Below are positions 3,599 through 12,658 of a DNA stretch of 35,589 bases, piece after piece. Positions within the stretch are counted from its first letter, which is position 1; each line of letters opens with the position of its first letter. Both the position numbers and the translations under genes were made by a program. The stretch is from Alphaproteobacteria bacterium (GTDB taxonomy: Bacteria; Pseudomonadota; Alphaproteobacteria; CASFRQ01; SAAU01), in assembly GCA_009929265.1 (NCBI GenBank), contig SAAU01000009.1, forward strand, positions 1 through 35,589, written 5' to 3'. The notes below the pieces were generated by a model, which saw nothing but the letters and a program-made list of their open reading frames with translations, ran no database searches and was not told where the DNA came from.

Positions 3599-6500
3599 TT
3601 AACAACAACTTACCGAACACTTTGATCGACAATATCCTGTTGACGAACTAATTGTTCCAGAATTTATTGTTGTGCAGTTAACAGATCCTGTAGAGGTTAT
3701 CGTCCCCCCATTGATCACGCCATAACTTATATACCCAGAACAAGAATCACGATCACGATCATCACAAACTGTATGACAATTACATTCATAGGGCGTTGGA
3801 AAACATGGGTAACATGTCGCATGACTTACACAGCGACCTGTTACATCATCACACTCCCATTCACGATCACAACAAGTAGAATATTTCTGACATGTATCAC
3901 ATTCTCGATGAGATTCACAACATCTTGAACAGGAATTACTCGAAACAACAGCTCCTCTAACATTTCCAGCGATTGCCCCGCCTGTCACACGACTATACGG
4001 GCCAATGGTTCCGCCTGTAATAGTTGGAGAGCCACTGATTTGAATATCTTCCCCTTGAACAGTTCCACCTGAAATATTCCCACCAGAGATTTGAACGGAA
4101 GACACCGAACAACATTCTGACGTTGTCTTTTTACATTCGGTTCCATCTAAAACATACCCCGCCTCACAAACATATGTTGCAGGTTCTGTCATAAAAGAAG
4201 AACAAGTAGAACCACTTAATGTATATCCATCTGGACAAACATAACCAATATTTTGAGTCTCAGTTTTTGTGCAAGTTGTCCCTTCCAATGTATAATCCAA
4301 TGGACAGGTATAAAAAGCTGGCAACGTCGCCCCCGTTGTTGTATTTGTACACGTTGACCCACTTAATGTATAGCCATCTAAACAAGTTAGGGTCGCCGGC
4401 TCAGAATAATCTTTTTGACAAACATCGCCTTCAGGCATCCAACCAGAAGGGCAACTTTCTGTTGCATCTGTTGTTTCTGAATAAGAACAAATCGCGCCGC
4501 CCCCTAATGTCCAATTTGTTGGGCACGTGGCCGTTGCAGCCAAAGTCACAATTTCTGTTGATTGAAGGACTGTTCCACTTGGGCAAGAGGATCCTTCAAC
4601 CGTTGTGCATGAACTTCCCAAAGTGCCATTGATAAGGGCGCTTCCTGAAATAGAACCTCCTGTAATAAAGCCTCCATTAACAGTCCCCCCAGAGAAAGAG
4701 CCGCCTTGGATGGTGCCGTTATTAATTGTGGCACTTCCAGAAACGGAAATATTACTTTCAGCAACGAAAGAGCCGTTGTTAATCGTTCCACCTGAAACGT
4801 AAATCGAATTTTCTCTATTCTTTGCCGTAAAGGTGCCGCCGTTAATTGTGCCCGATGTCACATAGATAGATTTGGAAACGGTTCCTGATGTAAATATTCC
4901 GCCTTTTATGGTGCCCCCAATCGCCTGTATTGAATAATAGGCTGCCTCACTAGTTGGTACTGTAAAGGTCCCGCCTTCAATATGGGCCCCTGCAATATGA
5001 ATTCCAGCCCAAGCCCCGTTATTTGTCAACGTGCCCCCAGAAATAGAGCCGCTAGAAATGTAAATATTTTTAATTACAGGCGAACCGGAAATTGTCCCGC
5101 CATTATATTGCCCCTCTGTAATGGTTCCGCCGTAAACGGTTGTTCCCGAACTGCTACCCCATGAGCCCCCGGAAATCGTTCCCCCATAAATTTTTGTATT
5201 TCCCCCCATTAAAGAACTGTTGACGGATCCGCCCGTTATGGTAAACCCGGAAAGAGCCTCAAAATAGTTGCTTGTATGTGGATGCCCTACTCTTATATTT
5301 GTAATCGTTGGGTTGCCAGAAATCGTCCCCCCTCTGACCGCAGAAACACTTGAGGTAGAGATAAGTTTTGCTGTTCCAGAAATATCTGTTGTTTTGGCCA
5401 CCCAATCGCCATTATATCTCTTATAAGCACCTGTAATTTCCCACTTTGCCGAAGAAGAAGAGTTTGTCTCAATCTTTCCTTCCCCCTCTAAAGCAACTAT
5501 CACTTTTCCAGCTTCCGTTAAAACCGTCGTTCCCGAAGCATAGTTTTTGTTTTGGATAAGAATACTTCCCGTTGTTGCCGTAATTTTCCCACTGACAAGT
5601 TTCATTGTTGGATCATTTAAGTTGATTTGATCCCGTTGAGAAGTGGTATAAGCACTTAAATTGATTCTATCTTTATCAATTCCGTTGATGACAACAGAAG
5701 CCCCAGAAGCGGCTGTAATATCGGCATCCCCAATGGAAACTGCACATTCATCTTGACCTGCCAAAATTTCAGACGTAAAGGCCTCTGTGGAAGCAGTTTT
5801 TACCTCCGTCCCGTCTGATTTAATTTGGCAAATCCGAATATCTCCAGTAGGAGAAGCTTTTGTAGCGCCACCAATACTGCCTCCAATTGTTGAATTTTTT
5901 ATAATATTTTTACTGGCCGGATTAAAATACGTATTGTCCCCTGTCACTTGGGCATTGCCACAAATGATAACATTGGAGCCAATCCAAGCTGTATCAGCCA
6001 ATTTTGTTGGGTCAGAAATATAGCCCCCCTTAACGCCTCCCGTGCAAGATTCAATCCGATAAAGAGGTGTTAACCCATTGCCACAGTTTTTATTTCTAAT
6101 CGTGGCATAGATTTCATAATCCGTTGTATCAGAAGACGCCCCTGGATTTCTCCATGTATCTAAAGTCGTCCGACTTAACATCAACCGCCATGTCCGTGAA
6201 CTGTCCGAACAAGTGCCGTAATCGTCATAATCTGTATCTCTTGTGCATTTGCGAATTCCTGTTGTGCTATCTTCTTTTGGAGGAGCCCAATCTGGACAAT
6301 TCACACAATAAGACCTATCAATCTCGGAAAGTTTAATCCCATCCATTCCTTTTAAAATACCGATGGTTTGGGTTTGGCTGTAATATCCTTTTCCGTCATC
6401 CCCTCCACTTGGCGCATAGTTGCTGCCCAGATTGCTACATTTAACACATCCATTTTGGTTGAGGCCACTCCAATCATCTCTCACTCCAGAACTTGGAGCA

Positions 6501-7675
6501 GATGTGCTGATACACGTGACCGCGGTCCCTGCGTCATTCAATTCGGCTTGAGGGCAATAGCTATACCTTGATCCACTTTCAAATTCAGCTGATGTATTAT
6601 TTTTATAGTAAGAGCTAAGGGCCCACCCTGAGGCCGACTGTCCATTACAAGAAGCACAATACCCCCAAGACGTAATGCCATCGCCTGTTGCGGAAGGTTT
6701 GTACTTTCCTTCAGAGCAAACAAATTTATGACATTTCACCCCTTCTGTCGTATCGTAAGTTGAGGTTTCTTCTGCCAAACAGTCATAGCAACTCAATCTT
6801 GAAATATCTCGACCAGTCCCCGAAATAAACTCATTTTTTCTAATTTTAACCCCGTCGATTGTCACAATGGATCTATCAAACTTAAAAACCGTCCCATTTA
6901 CACAAGTTTGGCAATAGCCTCCATTTAAATTCATGCCACTGTAGGCACTTGGGACAAACTCCCCAATCAATGGATTTTGTGTCTCATCTATCCGTTTATA
7001 ATTTAATTTCATCGTGCAAGCGATACATTCGTTTTTAGCAATATTTGGATAGGTTGGGATGTTTATTGCCTCTCCCTTTGTAATATAAATATTAGAGGCT
7101 TCCATATAAGGATAAGTTGAACAATTTTGACAGGTGTTATCTTTTACAATCTGGTTTGGTCCGCAATACGCACATGTATCCGCCCCATTTGTTGCCAAAG
7201 CGCCCCCATCTGTTCGTTTTGAAACAGAACCTTTTGGACAAGGATGACACGCATCTTCTAACCCATTTGCGGTATTATAGACGCTCCCCTTTGAGTAATA
7301 TCCTTGAGGACAAACCGTGCATTTCTTTTCTTCTTCCGTTGCCGCATAGTTAGGTTGTTTTCCTGCATCACACGAAATCCCAACAAGGTCTGTCCCTTTT
7401 GTTGTATCAACCCCGTTTGTATAGCAAAGAGAGGTATCCGAGCTTCCTGGATATAAACGCGGGGATTTGGAAAAAGATCCCATCCCCGTTCCTGTTTGCA
7501 TAGATCTATTGGTTTGGGAAATCTGAACCGCCTTCTTTTGAAGAGACGATAAAGAGTTTAATGCTTTATCTTCTGGCGTCTTATCGGCTTTGACTTTTAC
7601 AAGAACCGCATTTGCCGAAAAAGAAGCCGCGCAAGTTGATACCAAAACCAAGGATGCTGATAATCTGTTGCTCAT
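3599..7675 (-). CDS. Large exported cysteine-rich, beta-helix-like protein
   Basis: 1358 residues, unrecognised as a named family. Residues 1-23 look like a signal peptide (MSNRLSASLVLVSTCAASFSA, likely cut after SANA). About 60-550 is a string of cysteine pairs of CxxC / CxxCP type (CTVCPQGYY, CHPCPKGSV, CVNCPDWAPP), like TNFR or GCC2/GCC3 modules. About 590-1025 is Gly/Ser/Thr/Ile-rich with GGTI / GGSI every 10-20 residues (IYVSGGTINNGSF), as in right-handed beta-helices. About 1048-1188 holds five or so 25-residue CPxGYTLxGxTC units. Then a second short GGTI stretch, and a final very Cys-rich segment ending in CC. No autotransporter barrel, LPXTG or clear C-terminal sorting signal is visible. 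The likely place is the periplasm or cell surface, and disulphide bonds are expected. Adhesion or surface-layer function is inference only. Confidence 0.85.
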   Translation of the reverse strand: MSNRLSASLVLVSTCAASFSANAVLVKVKADKTPEDKALNSLSSLQKKAVQISQTNRSMQTGTGMGSFSKSPRLYPGSSDTSLCYTNGVDTTKGTDLVGISCDAGKQPNYAATEEEKKCTVCPQGYYSKGSVYNTANGLEDACHPCPKGSVSKRTDGGALATNGADTCAYCGPNQIVKDNTCQNCSTYPYMEASNIYITKGEAINIPTYPNIAKNECIACTMKLNYKRIDETQNPLIGEFVPSAYSGMNLNGGYCQTCVNGTVFKFDRSIVTIDGVKIRKNEFISGTGRDISRLSCYDCLAEETSTYDTTEGVKCHKFVCSEGKYKPSATGDGITSWGYCASCNGQSASGWALSSYYKNNTSAEFESGSRYSYCPQAELNDAGTAVTCISTSAPSSGVRDDWSGLNQNGCVKCSNLGSNYAPSGGDDGKGYYSQTQTIGILKGMDGIKLSEIDRSYCVNCPDWAPPKEDSTTGIRKCTRDTDYDDYGTCSDSSRTWRLMLSRTTLDTWRNPGASSDTTDYEIYATIRNKNCGNGLTPLYRIESCTGGVKGGYISDPTKLADTAWIGSNVIICGNAQVTGDNTYFNPASKNIIKNSTIGGSIGGATKASPTGDIRICQIKSDGTEVKTASTEAFTSEILAGQDECAVSIGDADITAASGASVVINGIDKDRINLSAYTTSQRDQINLNDPTMKLVSGKITATTGSILIQNKNYASGTTVLTEAGKVIVALEGEGKIETNSSSSAKWEITGAYKRYNGDWVAKTTDISGTAKLISTSSVSAVRGGTISGNPTITNIRVGHPHTSNYFEALSGFTITGGSVNSSLMGGNTKIYGGTISGGSWGSSSGTTVYGGTITEGQYNGGTISGSPVIKNIYISSGSISGGTLTNNGAWAGIHIAGAHIEGGTFTVPTSEAAYYSIQAIGGTIKGGIFTSGTVSKSIYVTSGTINGGTFTAKNRENSIYVSGGTINNGSFVAESNISVSGSATINNGTIQGGSFSGGTVNGGFITGGSISGSALINGTLGSSCTTVEGSSCPSGTVLQSTEIVTLAATATCPTNWTLGGGAICSYSETTDATESCPSGWMPEGDVCQKDYSEPATLTCLDGYTLSGSTCTNTTTGATLPAFYTCPLDYTLEGTTCTKTETQNIGYVCPDGYTLSGSTCSSFMTEPATYVCEAGYVLDGTECKKTTSECCSVSSVQISGGNISGGTVQGEDIQISGSPTITGGTIGPYSRVTGGAIAGNVRGAVVSSNSCSRCCESHRECDTCQKYSTCCDREWECDDVTGRCVSHATCYPCFPTPYECNCHTVCDDRDRDSCSGYISYGVINGGTITSTGSVNCTTINSGTISSSTGYCRSKCSVSCC

Positions 7676-7755: not shown

Positions 7756-7788
7756 AAAAAAAGAGTGAGGAAACGCCCACTCTTTTTT
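7756..7788 (-). terminator. Rho-independent terminator after the ECF sigma cassette
   Basis: On the minus strand AAAAAAGAGTG and CACTCTTTTTTT pair around a GC-rich loop, 27 bases after the stop of the Spy-like gene. It separates the sigma cassette from the large exported protein gene. Confidence 0.85.
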
Positions 7789-7814: not shown

Positions 7815-8294
7815 TTAACGTCTCCGACGCATTTTTTCCATATGTTTTTGTTTAATCTCATCCATTTTTTCTTTTTGCTCTTTAGTTAAAACGCGTTCGA
7901 ATTCAATCATATTTTCTTTTCTGATTTCATCCATTTCCTTTCGAATTGTCTGCATTTTTTCAAAGAGCGGTTTAATTTTTATTCGGGCTTTTTCTCTTGA
8001 TTCTCGCATAACTTTAAGCTGCTCGGTCGTTAAATCCAAATCCTTTGCTAAGCGTTTTTCATGACGTTTATCTTCCTCTGGAGAAGGCTCGCCCCGAGGA
8101 ATCCCCATTCTTCGCGAATATCTTTCCTTTTTTGAAAAACGATAGGAATGGCCTCTTTTTGAAAACGTCTTTTCTTGAGGAGCAAAGACCTCTTCTTGTT
8201 CCGAAACAGGGGCATCCATAGCCTCTTCTGCCTTCAAAAGGGTGGGTAAAGAAATCACACTTGCCATTAACAGCATATACATATATTTTTTCAT
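7815..8294 (-). CDS. Spy/CpxP-like periplasmic protein (LTxxQ family)
   Basis: 159 residues. An N-terminal signal peptide (about 1-22, MKKYMYMLLMASVISLPTLL) is followed by a charged, helical body with two LTxxQ motifs, LTTEQ (88-92) and LTKEQ (136-140), the signature of the Spy/CpxP/ZraP/CnrX fold: periplasmic helical hairpins that act as chaperones or metal/stress sensors. Residues 23-75 are a low-complexity linker; the C-terminus is strongly basic (MRRRR). The ATG overlaps the stop of the sigma gene by 4 bases (ATGA), so translation is coupled, and GGAGAG lies inside the sigma gene end. Context suggests a periplasmic sensor or target controlled by the sigma factor. Whether it binds metal cannot be seen. 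Confidence 0.85.
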   Translation of the reverse strand: MKKYMYMLLMASVISLPTLLKAEEAMDAPVSEQEEVFAPQEKTFSKRGHSYRFSKKERYSRRMGIPRGEPSPEEDKRHEKRLAKDLDLTTEQLKVMRESREKARIKIKPLFEKMQTIRKEMDEIRKENMIEFERVLTKEQKEKMDEIKQKHMEKMRRRR

Positions 8295-8788
8295 AAGTTC
8301 TCTCCTTCAAATTCTTTTAGATCTTCTTTTAAGTGTTTTTTTGCATTAAAGAGACGGGATTTAACTGTGCCAACGGGAATTCTCAAGCGCTTTGCAACTT
8401 CTTCTAGGGAGTTATCGTGAAATTCGGATAAGACAAGGACTTCTCTCATTTTTCTTGGCAAATTTGAAACCGCTTCTAAAACCTTTTTTTGGCGTTGTTT
8501 GCGAATAATGGCCTCCTCCTGCATCGCTTGAACTGAAAGCGTTTCTAAGACCTCTTCGCCTGCCGTAATCGCTCTTTGTCGTTCTCCTTTAGATCTCTTA
8601 AAATCCCGACACATATTCCGAGCCACCGAAGAAACCCATCCCTTAAACTTTCCCTGCTCTTGGTATTTATGTAAATTCTGCCAAGTTTTCAGGTAAATTT
8701 CTTGCGCCAGGTCCTCGTTCTTTTGTCCTGTCATTCTCTCCACAATAAAGGAGATTCGCTTGCGATAAAGAGTAAGTTCATTTTCCAT
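8291..8788 (-). CDS. ECF-type RNA polymerase sigma factor
   Basis: 165 residues, the usual size for ECF (group 4) sigma factors that have only sigma2 and sigma4 domains. Sigma2 covers about 1-70, with DLAQEIYLKTWQNL and FKGWVSSVARNMCRDFKR (core binding and -10 recognition). Sigma4 covers about 105-158, with LPRKMREVLVLSEF and the helix-turn-helix SLEEVAKRLRIPVGTVKSRL (-35 recognition). It starts inside the stop codon of the upstream small membrane protein gene (TGATG) and overlaps the Spy-like gene downstream by 4 bases, so the three are one tight operon. The ECF group cannot be assigned by eye. A GAAC-N16-CGTT element before the operon suggests autoregulation. Confidence 0.95.
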   Translation of the reverse strand: MENELTLYRKRISFIVERMTGQKNEDLAQEIYLKTWQNLHKYQEQGKFKGWVSSVARNMCRDFKRSKGERQRAITAGEEVLETLSVQAMQEEAIIRKQRQKKVLEAVSNLPRKMREVLVLSEFHDNSLEEVAKRLRIPVGTVKSRLFNAKKHLKEDLKEFEGENL

Positions 8789-10933: not shown

Positions 10934-11842
10934 ATGGCTGACATAGAAGATATTAAAGAATTTTTACTTGGATCTATTTTACAAGTCACTTATCTTACTA
11001 AAGATAAAGACCCTCTTTTATGGAGAAAAGGGAGTTCTTTTATTATTTCATATAAAAACAATTTCTTTATAGCCACAGCCTCTCATTGCATTGACAAAGA
11101 ATATAAAGATCAATTGTTTTTTTCTAACTTTTCAAATTCGTATCAAAACAAATTTTTTTCTATTCCTCTTTCTAAAGAGATAATTTCTACCGACAACACA
11201 GGAGAAGATAGAGATTTTAGACTATTTAAAATAAATCTAGAAGAAATGGCTGAAATTATTCAAAGAGAAAAAGGAATTCCAACAGCTGAGGAAATCTATA
11301 AAAAAATATCAAATATGCCTTTGATATCAAAGATACGAAAACGATATAAAAATAATCAGATAAAATGTGCAAAAAAAATAAAAGAAACAAAAATTTTTCA
11401 AAAACATTTTTCAGAACAAGACTTTCTCTTTTACAAGACTTATAAATCTAAAAATTGTCCTTTTTCTAAACTAAAAACGCTTAAATTTCCTTTAAGTAAT
11501 TTTTCGTTTTTAGAAGGAACAGAATGTTCATTTTGTGGATATTCTTATGAAAAAAGTGAAATAAAATACATTGATACATCTTGTAGTGATACACTCCGCA
11601 CCGAAGAGATTCATCAACACTTTCAAAAACATTCAGGCATATTAACGGGAGATTATAATAAAAACAGTGATTCTTATTCTTTACGTTATTCTACAGATGA
11701 AGATCTAAATGGACTAAGCGGAGGACCCGTTCTTTCAAAAAAAGGCGAACTTATTGGCATTATTTCATTTATTGAAGCAAACAATAAAATTTTAAAATTT
11801 ACACCATATACAAAAATTCAAAATATTTTAAAATCACTTTAA
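10934..11842 (+). CDS. Trypsin-like serine protease, cytoplasmic
   Basis: 302 residues. The chymotrypsin-fold triad is recognisable: His51 in FIATASHCID, Asp94 in DRDFRLFKI, and Ser262 in GLSGGPVLSKKGELIGIISF (oxyanion-hole GxSGGP). The spacing between Asp and Ser holds a long extra segment (about 100-245), Lys-rich with several Cys. There is no signal peptide, PDZ domain or membrane helix, unlike DegP/HtrA, so it acts in the cytoplasm. Base composition is very AT-rich (sampled lines 25-28% GC against about 40% in aspS), a sign of foreign origin. Its last 9 bases overlap the end of the convergent nuclease-like gene. Stand-alone trypsin-like proteases of this kind occur in bacterial conflict loci; that role here is inference. 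No good ribosome binding site is visible. Confidence 0.82.
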   Translation: MADIEDIKEFLLGSILQVTYLTKDKDPLLWRKGSSFIISYKNNFFIATASHCIDKEYKDQLFFSNFSNSYQNKFFSIPLSKEIISTDNTGEDRDFRLFKINLEEMAEIIQREKGIPTAEEIYKKISNMPLISKIRKRYKNNQIKCAKKIKETKIFQKHFSEQDFLFYKTYKSKNCPFSKLKTLKFPLSNFSFLEGTECSFCGYSYEKSEIKYIDTSCSDTLRTEEIHQHFQKHSGILTGDYNKNSDSYSLRYSTDEDLNGLSGGPVLSKKGELIGIISFIEANNKILKFTPYTKIQNILKSL

Positions 11843-12616
11843 CTTCACGACATTTTTCTCCCTGCATAAAAAAGTCTCTTTAAATTCCGATGAAAAAGAA
11901 TATTGCTTTACATCATCCGAAAAAGAACAGTAATTTCCTTTACCTATATCCGGCAAGAAAATCAAAAGAAAACATTCATGACAGTTTTTCAAATACGACT
12001 TATATTTTCGGTTTTTTTTATCAATTTTTTCTTGTAAATTTTTAAAAGGATCTTTAACTGGAAAACTTTCATTATTCACAAAGCAATCATATTTTCCATT
12101 TAGATTTGGAAATCCACTTAAAATTATTTTTATATATTCCCCTTGAATTTGTATAGTTTCTTGCACTAAAGAGGGCCACTTTATTATTTTATCTATGTTG
12201 TTATCAATAAGTTCTTCTATTTTTGGTTTAATATCATTTTCTTTAAAAAGGAAACAAAAACCTGGGTGACAATGAAGATCTATATAATCCTTCCAATAAA
12301 GGCTCCATAATCTTGATTCGAATTTATCAATGAGAATTGAAATATTTAATTTATATTCCTCTTTTGCATAACAACAGGCTTTATTTCCTATCCTTCTTAG
12401 CTTTTGTAAGACCTTTCCATTTTTGGTTTCTTCTATATATTGCGTTATTTCCAATCCTATAGTTTTATTATCTTTAGACCTAAATAAAAAATCAGGAGAT
12501 TCGTTTTTTTGATACCCTTCTCTTATTTTATATTTTTCTTTCCACAATTTTCCTTCAGGAGAACTTAAAAATATGTTTAAGAATTCTTCCTCTTCCGATT
12601 TTTTATCTTGGCTCAT
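11834..12616 (-). CDS. Putative PD-(D/E)XK-like nuclease
   Basis: 260 residues from the ATG at 12616, chosen because AAGGGG lies just upstream; an in-frame ATG at 12634 would add 6 residues. The segment ESPDFLFRSKDNKTIGLEIT (Asp42 and Glu56 in this numbering) fits the first part of a PD-(D/E)XK site, but with Thr in place of the usual Lys; this PDF...GLEIT form is seen in many uncharacterised endonuclease-like proteins. The rest (SILIDKFESRLW, FLLIFLPDIGKG) looks alpha/beta. There is no signal peptide. It is AT-rich like the protease, tail-to-tail with it with a 9-base overlap, and lies just 3' of a tRNA gene. Function as a restriction or defence nuclease is inference; activity is uncertain because of the missing Lys. 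Confidence 0.6.
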   Translation of the reverse strand: MSQDKKSEEEEFLNIFLSSPEGKLWKEKYKIREGYQKNESPDFLFRSKDNKTIGLEITQYIEETKNGKVLQKLRRIGNKACCYAKEEYKLNISILIDKFESRLWSLYWKDYIDLHCHPGFCFLFKENDIKPKIEELIDNNIDKIIKWPSLVQETIQIQGEYIKIILSGFPNLNGKYDCFVNNESFPVKDPFKNLQEKIDKKNRKYKSYLKNCHECFLLIFLPDIGKGNYCSFSDDVKQYSFSSEFKETFLCREKNVVKLK

Positions 12617-12658
12617 CATTCCCCTTCCCAACATTATCCAAAAATAATATTTTTCTTC

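Follow-up and report, generated by a model that had tools for sequence, protein, structure and literature searches.

The DNA window studied here, that is, the whole stretch of 35,589 nucleotides, is contig C68 of a 1.24-Mb alphaproteobacterial genome in 87 contigs (G000), and the gene of interest lies on its minus strand (7675 to 3599), where it encodes an exported protein of 1358 amino acids combining Cys-rich modules with GGTI repeats. A single unbroken open reading frame (ORF) spans exactly positions 3599-7675, the plus strand of the same interval being riddled with stops. A preliminary description of this DNA, made from the letters alone, had pointed to such a protein; the gene is real, the modules are present and the order given for them is correct along the 1358-residue frame. 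The protein is a member of a real, unnamed and lineage-restricted family; a search against Pfam and NCBIfam returned no family at E<=1, which agrees with the earlier remark that this order of modules is not a known named family, and nothing that was found points to a characterised family of another role. The parts of the gene are the following:

3599..7675, minus strand: whole gene of the 1358-residue exported modular protein (P0001), an ORF found again in genome contig G000:C68
7607..7675, minus strand: residues 1-23, Sec signal peptide with predicted cleavage after ANA (sequence; n/h/c-region pattern kept in the paralogues)
7427..7606, minus strand: residues 24-83, short conserved N-terminal region (alignment of the paralogues and a relative)
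6083..7426, minus strand: residues 84-531, Cys-rich modules with CxxC pairs, GCC2/GCC3-like (CxxC enrichment; paralogue matches to PF07699 and thyroglobulin)
5888..6070, minus strand: residues 536-596, putative YdcK-like solenoid start (phrog_7964/phrog_5070; alignment; bridge protein L051)
5333..5887, minus strand: residues 597-781, less regular part of the predicted solenoid, rich in strands (DSSP of a low-confidence model; phrog_7964)
4616..5332, minus strand: residues 782-1020, main GGTI/GGSI solenoid, period of about 5 residues (repeat statistics; AlphaFold strands)
4109..4525, minus strand: residues 1051-1189, CPxGYTLxGxTC units and a CC pair (motif count)
3968..4096, minus strand: residues 1194-1236, a short GGTI stretch, the second solenoid segment (period 5, p 0.01)
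3602..3931, minus strand: residues 1249-1358, dense Cys tail and last GGTI pair (identity to an orphan ORF in L009)

The signal peptide reads MSNRLSASLVLVSTCAASFSANA/VLVK, and its SASLVL start is common to the paralogues. It is followed by a Cys-free region (residues 24-83) with the conserved pattern K..E..ALN.LS.L, which is probably helical. Those paralogues make up the family that had been anticipated: the same genome encodes a full-length copy of 1267 residues (paralogue B, L004:6857-10660, minus strand), which can be aligned with the window protein along its signal region and Cys modules and from residue 535 to 1045, and a third copy of which only the first 127 residues are left before the end of contig C61 cuts it. 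The second genome of the taxonomic family (G001; CASFRQ01, uncultured Alphaproteobacteria) holds an N-terminal piece of 622 residues (L031) and a C-terminal piece of 765 residues (L009), each running off a contig end, and both probably form one gene orthologous to paralogue B. Signal, N-terminal region, Cys modules, start domain and solenoid are shared by the members, with an identity of 28-40% among the copies. When the full protein was searched against 385 genomes of the class, the matches were confined to G000 and G001, and when 84,980 species were scanned, twice, the sister species was the sole match, although the genome of the window may itself be absent from that set. Clear homologues are thus found only in two species of this taxonomic family, for which the records state no habitat, a distribution that does not bear out the suggested clustering in gut Alphaproteobacteria; just a looser plan of signal, Cys modules and solenoid extends to another alphaproteobacterial order. 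Literature searches on GCC2/GCC3 modules in bacteria, YdcK solenoids and adhesins of gut Alphaproteobacteria brought up no account of such a protein.

The Cys-rich part, announced as about 500 residues of CxxC-type modules, comprises residues 84-531 and contains 29 Cys, and residues 1-534 hold 10 CxxC motifs against the 1.57 expected from shuffles. Within the family, these modules look like GCC2/GCC3 (Ephrin_rec_like, PF07699), with which they have the pattern CPxGxYS..GxxxCxPC in common: paralogue B matches PF07699 at 4.4e-4 with 20.4 bits and the copy on contig C61 with 16.3 bits, and B also matches thyroglobulin in a Cys-rich stretch (1.2e-5). However, the spacing of the Cys pairs is longer and irregular here, and every match lies under the Pfam cut-off (23.1 bits). 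A profile of the N-terminal part, run class-wide, was limited beyond the family to matches in the Cys modules, and in the sampled genomes some other alphaproteobacterial families, too, have exported proteins with GCC2/GCC3-like modules. Regarding the pairing of these cysteines, the genome encodes a Thioredoxin_4 protein with a signal peptide and a CSHC motif, a DsbA-like protein that is a plausible disulphide catalyst; the DSBA family proper (PF01323) gave no match in the genome. As an observation apart, one of those other families carries an exported frame of 1830 residues and 251 Cys (L032:3204-8693; G189:C32), which is built from GCC2/GCC3-like and EGF-like modules, dozens in number, and is neighboured by further Cys-rich exported genes.

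The repeats come next along the chain, and here the preliminary description, which had counted about 430 residues of GGTI/GGSI, was right about the repeats and wrong about their length. The dense part measures about 240 residues (782-1020), contains 13 GG[TSANK][IVFLY] motifs and is the only place where GGT/SI is dense, residues 598-781 showing only scattered motifs. In residues 780-1020, the aliphatic residues follow a period of 5 (autocorrelation of 0.33 vs -0.01 +/- 0.07 in shuffles), and the rungs are rich in Ser, Thr and Gly, with few charged residues. What had been overlooked is a putative YdcK-like start domain at about residues 536-596, within the 245 residues that precede the GGTI-dense stretch. 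It reads LYRIESC..KGGYI..AWIGSNVIICGNAQV in the window protein, and the alignment places the motif L(Y/F)(R/Q)I(E/Q)xC ... GG(Y/F)I ... WIGxNVxxCG in all copies, just N-terminal of the solenoid.

This start motif (in the form LYRI..GGYI..AWIG) and the subsequent solenoid repeats resemble those of the YdcK-like solenoids (phrog_7964/phrog_5070; PDB 2f9c and 2pig; PF18836), significantly in paralogue B and L009 and marginally in the window copy. The two PHROG profiles match paralogue B at 8.5e-9 and 8e-8, the match of phrog_7964 covering part of the region equivalent to residues 597-781, and L009 of the sister species at 3e-10 and 7e-7, and neither profile matches the reversed stretches of the window protein, B or L009. 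Specificity for a YdcK-like kinship is confined to the start motif, since phrog_7964 picks up ordinary hexapeptide acyltransferases as well; most of the other large matches of this profile that were inspected belong to LpxA/LpxD-type acyltransferases or to unrelated repeats. PF18836 has no match above its cut-off in the window copy or in B, and a PDB profile search, run with A4, returned nothing of use. The bridge is provided by L051, a 556-residue protein from another alphaproteobacterial order (G385) that is found with the start-domain profile and whose solenoid is clearly YdcK-like (phrog_7964 at 5e-36, phrog_5070 at 1e-32 and PDB YdcK 2f9c at 4e-6). Used directly as a query, its solenoid detects L009 (3.6e-6), with no match from any of 400 shuffles or 4 reversals, and retrieves neither the window protein nor paralogue B. 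L051 has the same plan as the window protein, from signal peptide through Cys-rich N-terminal part to YdcK-like solenoid, but it is shorter and has no GGTI helix of such length, no CPxGYTL units and no dense Cys tail. Altogether, a YdcK-like origin of the family's solenoid is very probable; for the window copy it is argued chiefly from the start motif and from the kinship with B. Unlike YdcK itself (334 residues in PDB), for which Cys modules are not known, the solenoid here runs on as GGTI repeats with a 5-residue period inside an exported Cys-rich protein.

Behind the main solenoid, the "five or so" CPxGYTLxGxTC units of the preliminary description are exactly five clear ones within residues 1075-1181 (C-x(2)-G/D-[YWV]-[TMV]-[LP]-x-G-x2-C, starting at 1075, 1098, 1124, 1147 and 1170), preceded by one further degenerate unit, CPTNWTLGGGAIC, at residues 1051-1063. 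The second short GGTI stretch is present as well (about 1194-1236), as is the dense-cysteine tail (residues 1249-1358), with 20 Cys and CSVSCC as its end. Conservation along the protein is highest in the last 64 residues, and an orphan ORF of 72 residues in the sister species (L009:5575-5793) is 64% identical to residues 1295-1358. That ORF has no in-frame upstream part and could represent the remnant of a decayed copy, a mobile end or sequences joined in assembly.

Structure prediction leans to a solenoid, short of proof. AlphaFold models of residues 480-1358 (4 sequences; mean pLDDT 41.7, with 67-78 at 940-1019) and of residues 775-1040 (3 sequences; mean pLDDT 52.9, with about 61-75 around 940-1019) both contain recurring short strands, and the top Foldseek matches, none of them significant, are mostly beta-solenoids. 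The beta-helix proposed earlier is favoured by strand patterns, the 5-residue period and the remote YdcK-like homology, and tempered by the low confidence of the models and the lack of significant structural matches. The cues on rung length and handedness are split between the 5-residue period, together with non-significant matches to pentapeptide-repeat proteins and synthetic solenoids, and the hexapeptide relatives.

As to how such a chain would leave the cell, the usual signs are missing, as the preliminary description had noted for barrel and lipobox. Compared by eye, the signal region has no lipobox: Cys15 follows LVST, with Thr at -1, and is not conserved in the paralogues. No hydrophobic stretch besides the signal suggests a transmembrane segment (best 19-residue KD 1.27). 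In the Pfam search, neither the C-terminal barrel of classical (type Va) autotransporters (PF03797) nor an N-terminal domain for two-partner secretion (TPS) was found; the C-terminus is instead the Cys tail ending in CC, and the Cys modules come after the signal. Autotransporter passengers and two-partner-secretion adhesins (Hap, Ag43, EtpA), which are among the top non-significant Foldseek matches, also present a long beta-solenoid of the kind proposed here as an exposed stalk, but they have the barrel or TPS domain that the window protein lacks, and it is rich in cysteines. A long modular exported protein is also what defines its likeness to fibrillar adhesins, about half of which likewise have no known anchor (PMC8286594), as is the case for many large fibre-like exported bacterial proteins (PMC8286594); in contrast to them, no known stalk or adhesive domain was found in the window protein with Pfam and NCBIfam.

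On this basis, we slightly favour the view that the window protein is an exported, disulphide-rich, elongated fibre with a YdcK-like solenoid, displayed or released at the surface for binding. Sec would bring the chain into the periplasm and a DsbA-like thiol oxidase would pair its cysteines there; the N-terminal GCC2/GCC3-like modules would then form a stiff, knobbly stalk, the middle a YdcK-like beta-solenoid initiated by the conserved start domain and extended by the GGTI rungs, and the Cys-rich C-terminal units a solenoid cap or the tip of the fibre. The protein and its paralogues would most likely be shown on, or released at, the cell surface, their target being a host, a particle or a neighbouring cell. 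Of the disulphide-stabilised surface fibre or adhesin put forward initially, the exported disulphide-rich solenoid fibre without visible anchor thus stands, while surface location and adhesion, like folding into a fibre and crossing of the outer membrane, are what we infer. Several points weigh against this interpretation. The window copy itself has no Pfam match, PF07699 included, and its PHROG matches are weak (0.0012 for phrog_7964 and 0.0025 for phrog_5070, spanning just 42-55 profile positions); the mature protein has an odd number of Cys (69), without explanation; most of the model is under pLDDT 50, and Foldseek gave no match to the models at E<=0.001; neither an anchor for the outer membrane nor an exit signal nor a known adhesive domain was found; and the records of the organism state no habitat.

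Other explanations have to be weighed against the surface fibre, starting with those that keep its architecture. Type IVb pili can export Sec-delivered proteins (PMC9565799), and TcpF is first exported by Sec and then passes through the secretin with a minor pilin (PMC9565799). Both genomes of the family have one secretin each, encoded in an R64/IncI1-type type IVb pilus operon identified by sequence reading and the secretin Pfam match:

L046:1460-11642 (G000:C38) and L047:119-9326 (G001:C113): type IVb pilus operon with a PilN-like secretin lipoprotein, an ATPase, a membrane protein and several GRSMIEMLGVLAI prepilins

It is conceivable, if rather doubtful, that a protein without an anchor or barrel of its own is carried across the outer membrane by this pilus, like TcpF or CofJ, and released or left at its tip. 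Yet the gene is far from the pilus operon and unlinked, the aromatic type IVb pilus signal near the mature N-terminus is not conserved by eye (VLVKVKADK, TTRTDFSK, SLVTENKS, VYSKKIPQ), and a stiff chain of about 1300 residues may not fit; because of the first two points, the secretin can be taken just as a lead for the exit route. TolC-like OEP proteins are also encoded in the genome. An unlikely extension of the same idea would make the Cys-dense C-terminus a new disulphide-built anchoring or export module, displaying a solenoid fibre that has neither barrel nor lipid, perhaps via the pilus secretin. It is equally improbable that the protein never gets outside and has a structural role in the periplasm or across the envelope: the Sec signal is the sole one visible and no system for its export over the outer membrane was identified, but its length, the several paralogues and their fast divergence (28-40% identity) are more typical of exposed proteins.

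A kinship with the tail fibres or tailspikes of phages, through recruitment by the bacterium or as a prophage remnant, is suggested by phrog_7964 and phrog_5070 being phage families and by GGTI runs of a similar kind in viral tail-region proteins. Nevertheless, there are no phage genes around any of the copies, tblastn detected no phage relative of the window protein, B or L009, neither the signal peptide nor the Cys modules look like those of a phage and YdcK-type solenoids are also bacterial, all of which makes this origin very improbable; the candidate was rejected, the viral contigs having yielded only low-complexity GGTI runs, and a scan of them with L051 gave no match. The viral proteins in question (L029:2208-6044 and L030:3-950) have long, near-perfect GGTI(T/S) runs and no Cys modules. 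Least probable of all, and very unlikely, would be an enzyme, either a solenoid acyltransferase or a polysaccharide lyase with a Cys-rich extension: YdcK and the hexapeptide acyltransferases have the same type of fold, and pectate lyases are among the non-significant Foldseek matches, but no catalytic family matches in Pfam or NCBIfam, and the composition of the GGTI rungs, poor in charged residues, speaks against it.

Taken one by one, the parts are recognisable, while their arrangement is unusual and the question of attachment stands out. Animal-type disulphide modules would be joined to a YdcK-like solenoid, as a family of paralogues, in a small-genome alphaproteobacterium, which offers a concrete case for the question of how a fibre without a barrel gets across the Gram-negative outer membrane and remains attached to it.

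The surroundings of the gene add some minor observations. Upstream, an ECF sigma factor gene overlaps a gene for a small exported LTXXQ protein (CpxP/Spy-like, under the Pfam cut-off) at 7815-8788, forming an envelope-stress pair that adjoins the fibre gene. Between them lies the following element:

7757..7788, minus strand: terminator-like hairpin of the upstream sigma/LTXXQ genes, with a 13-pair stem followed mostly by T

The hairpin (7788-7757) is likely a terminator parting both units, with terminator-like sites across the region numbering 9 vs 6.9 expected. An operon shared with the sigma and LTXXQ genes was considered and judged unlikely, because this hairpin intervenes and the neighbours of paralogue B are different. 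Downstream, a DUF805/SHOCT gene starts 19 bases past the stop of the fibre gene, with its own ribosome site, and may be co-transcribed with it. Directly behind the fibre gene of the sister species, two adjacent frames (L009:2176-5390) resemble, by eye, tandem apolipoprotein N-acyltransferase genes. A search with an anti-phage library gave no match. Farther away in the window are a trypsin-like protease gene (10934-11842; PF00089 at 1.6e-9), beside a minus-strand frame without Pfam match (11834-12634), and a DEAD-box helicase gene (610-2355) whose product ends in a tail with four basic repeats of 33 residues (KKSFxxDKSFSDKKRFGKAKE...), corresponding at the DNA level to a 99-bp tandem repeat.

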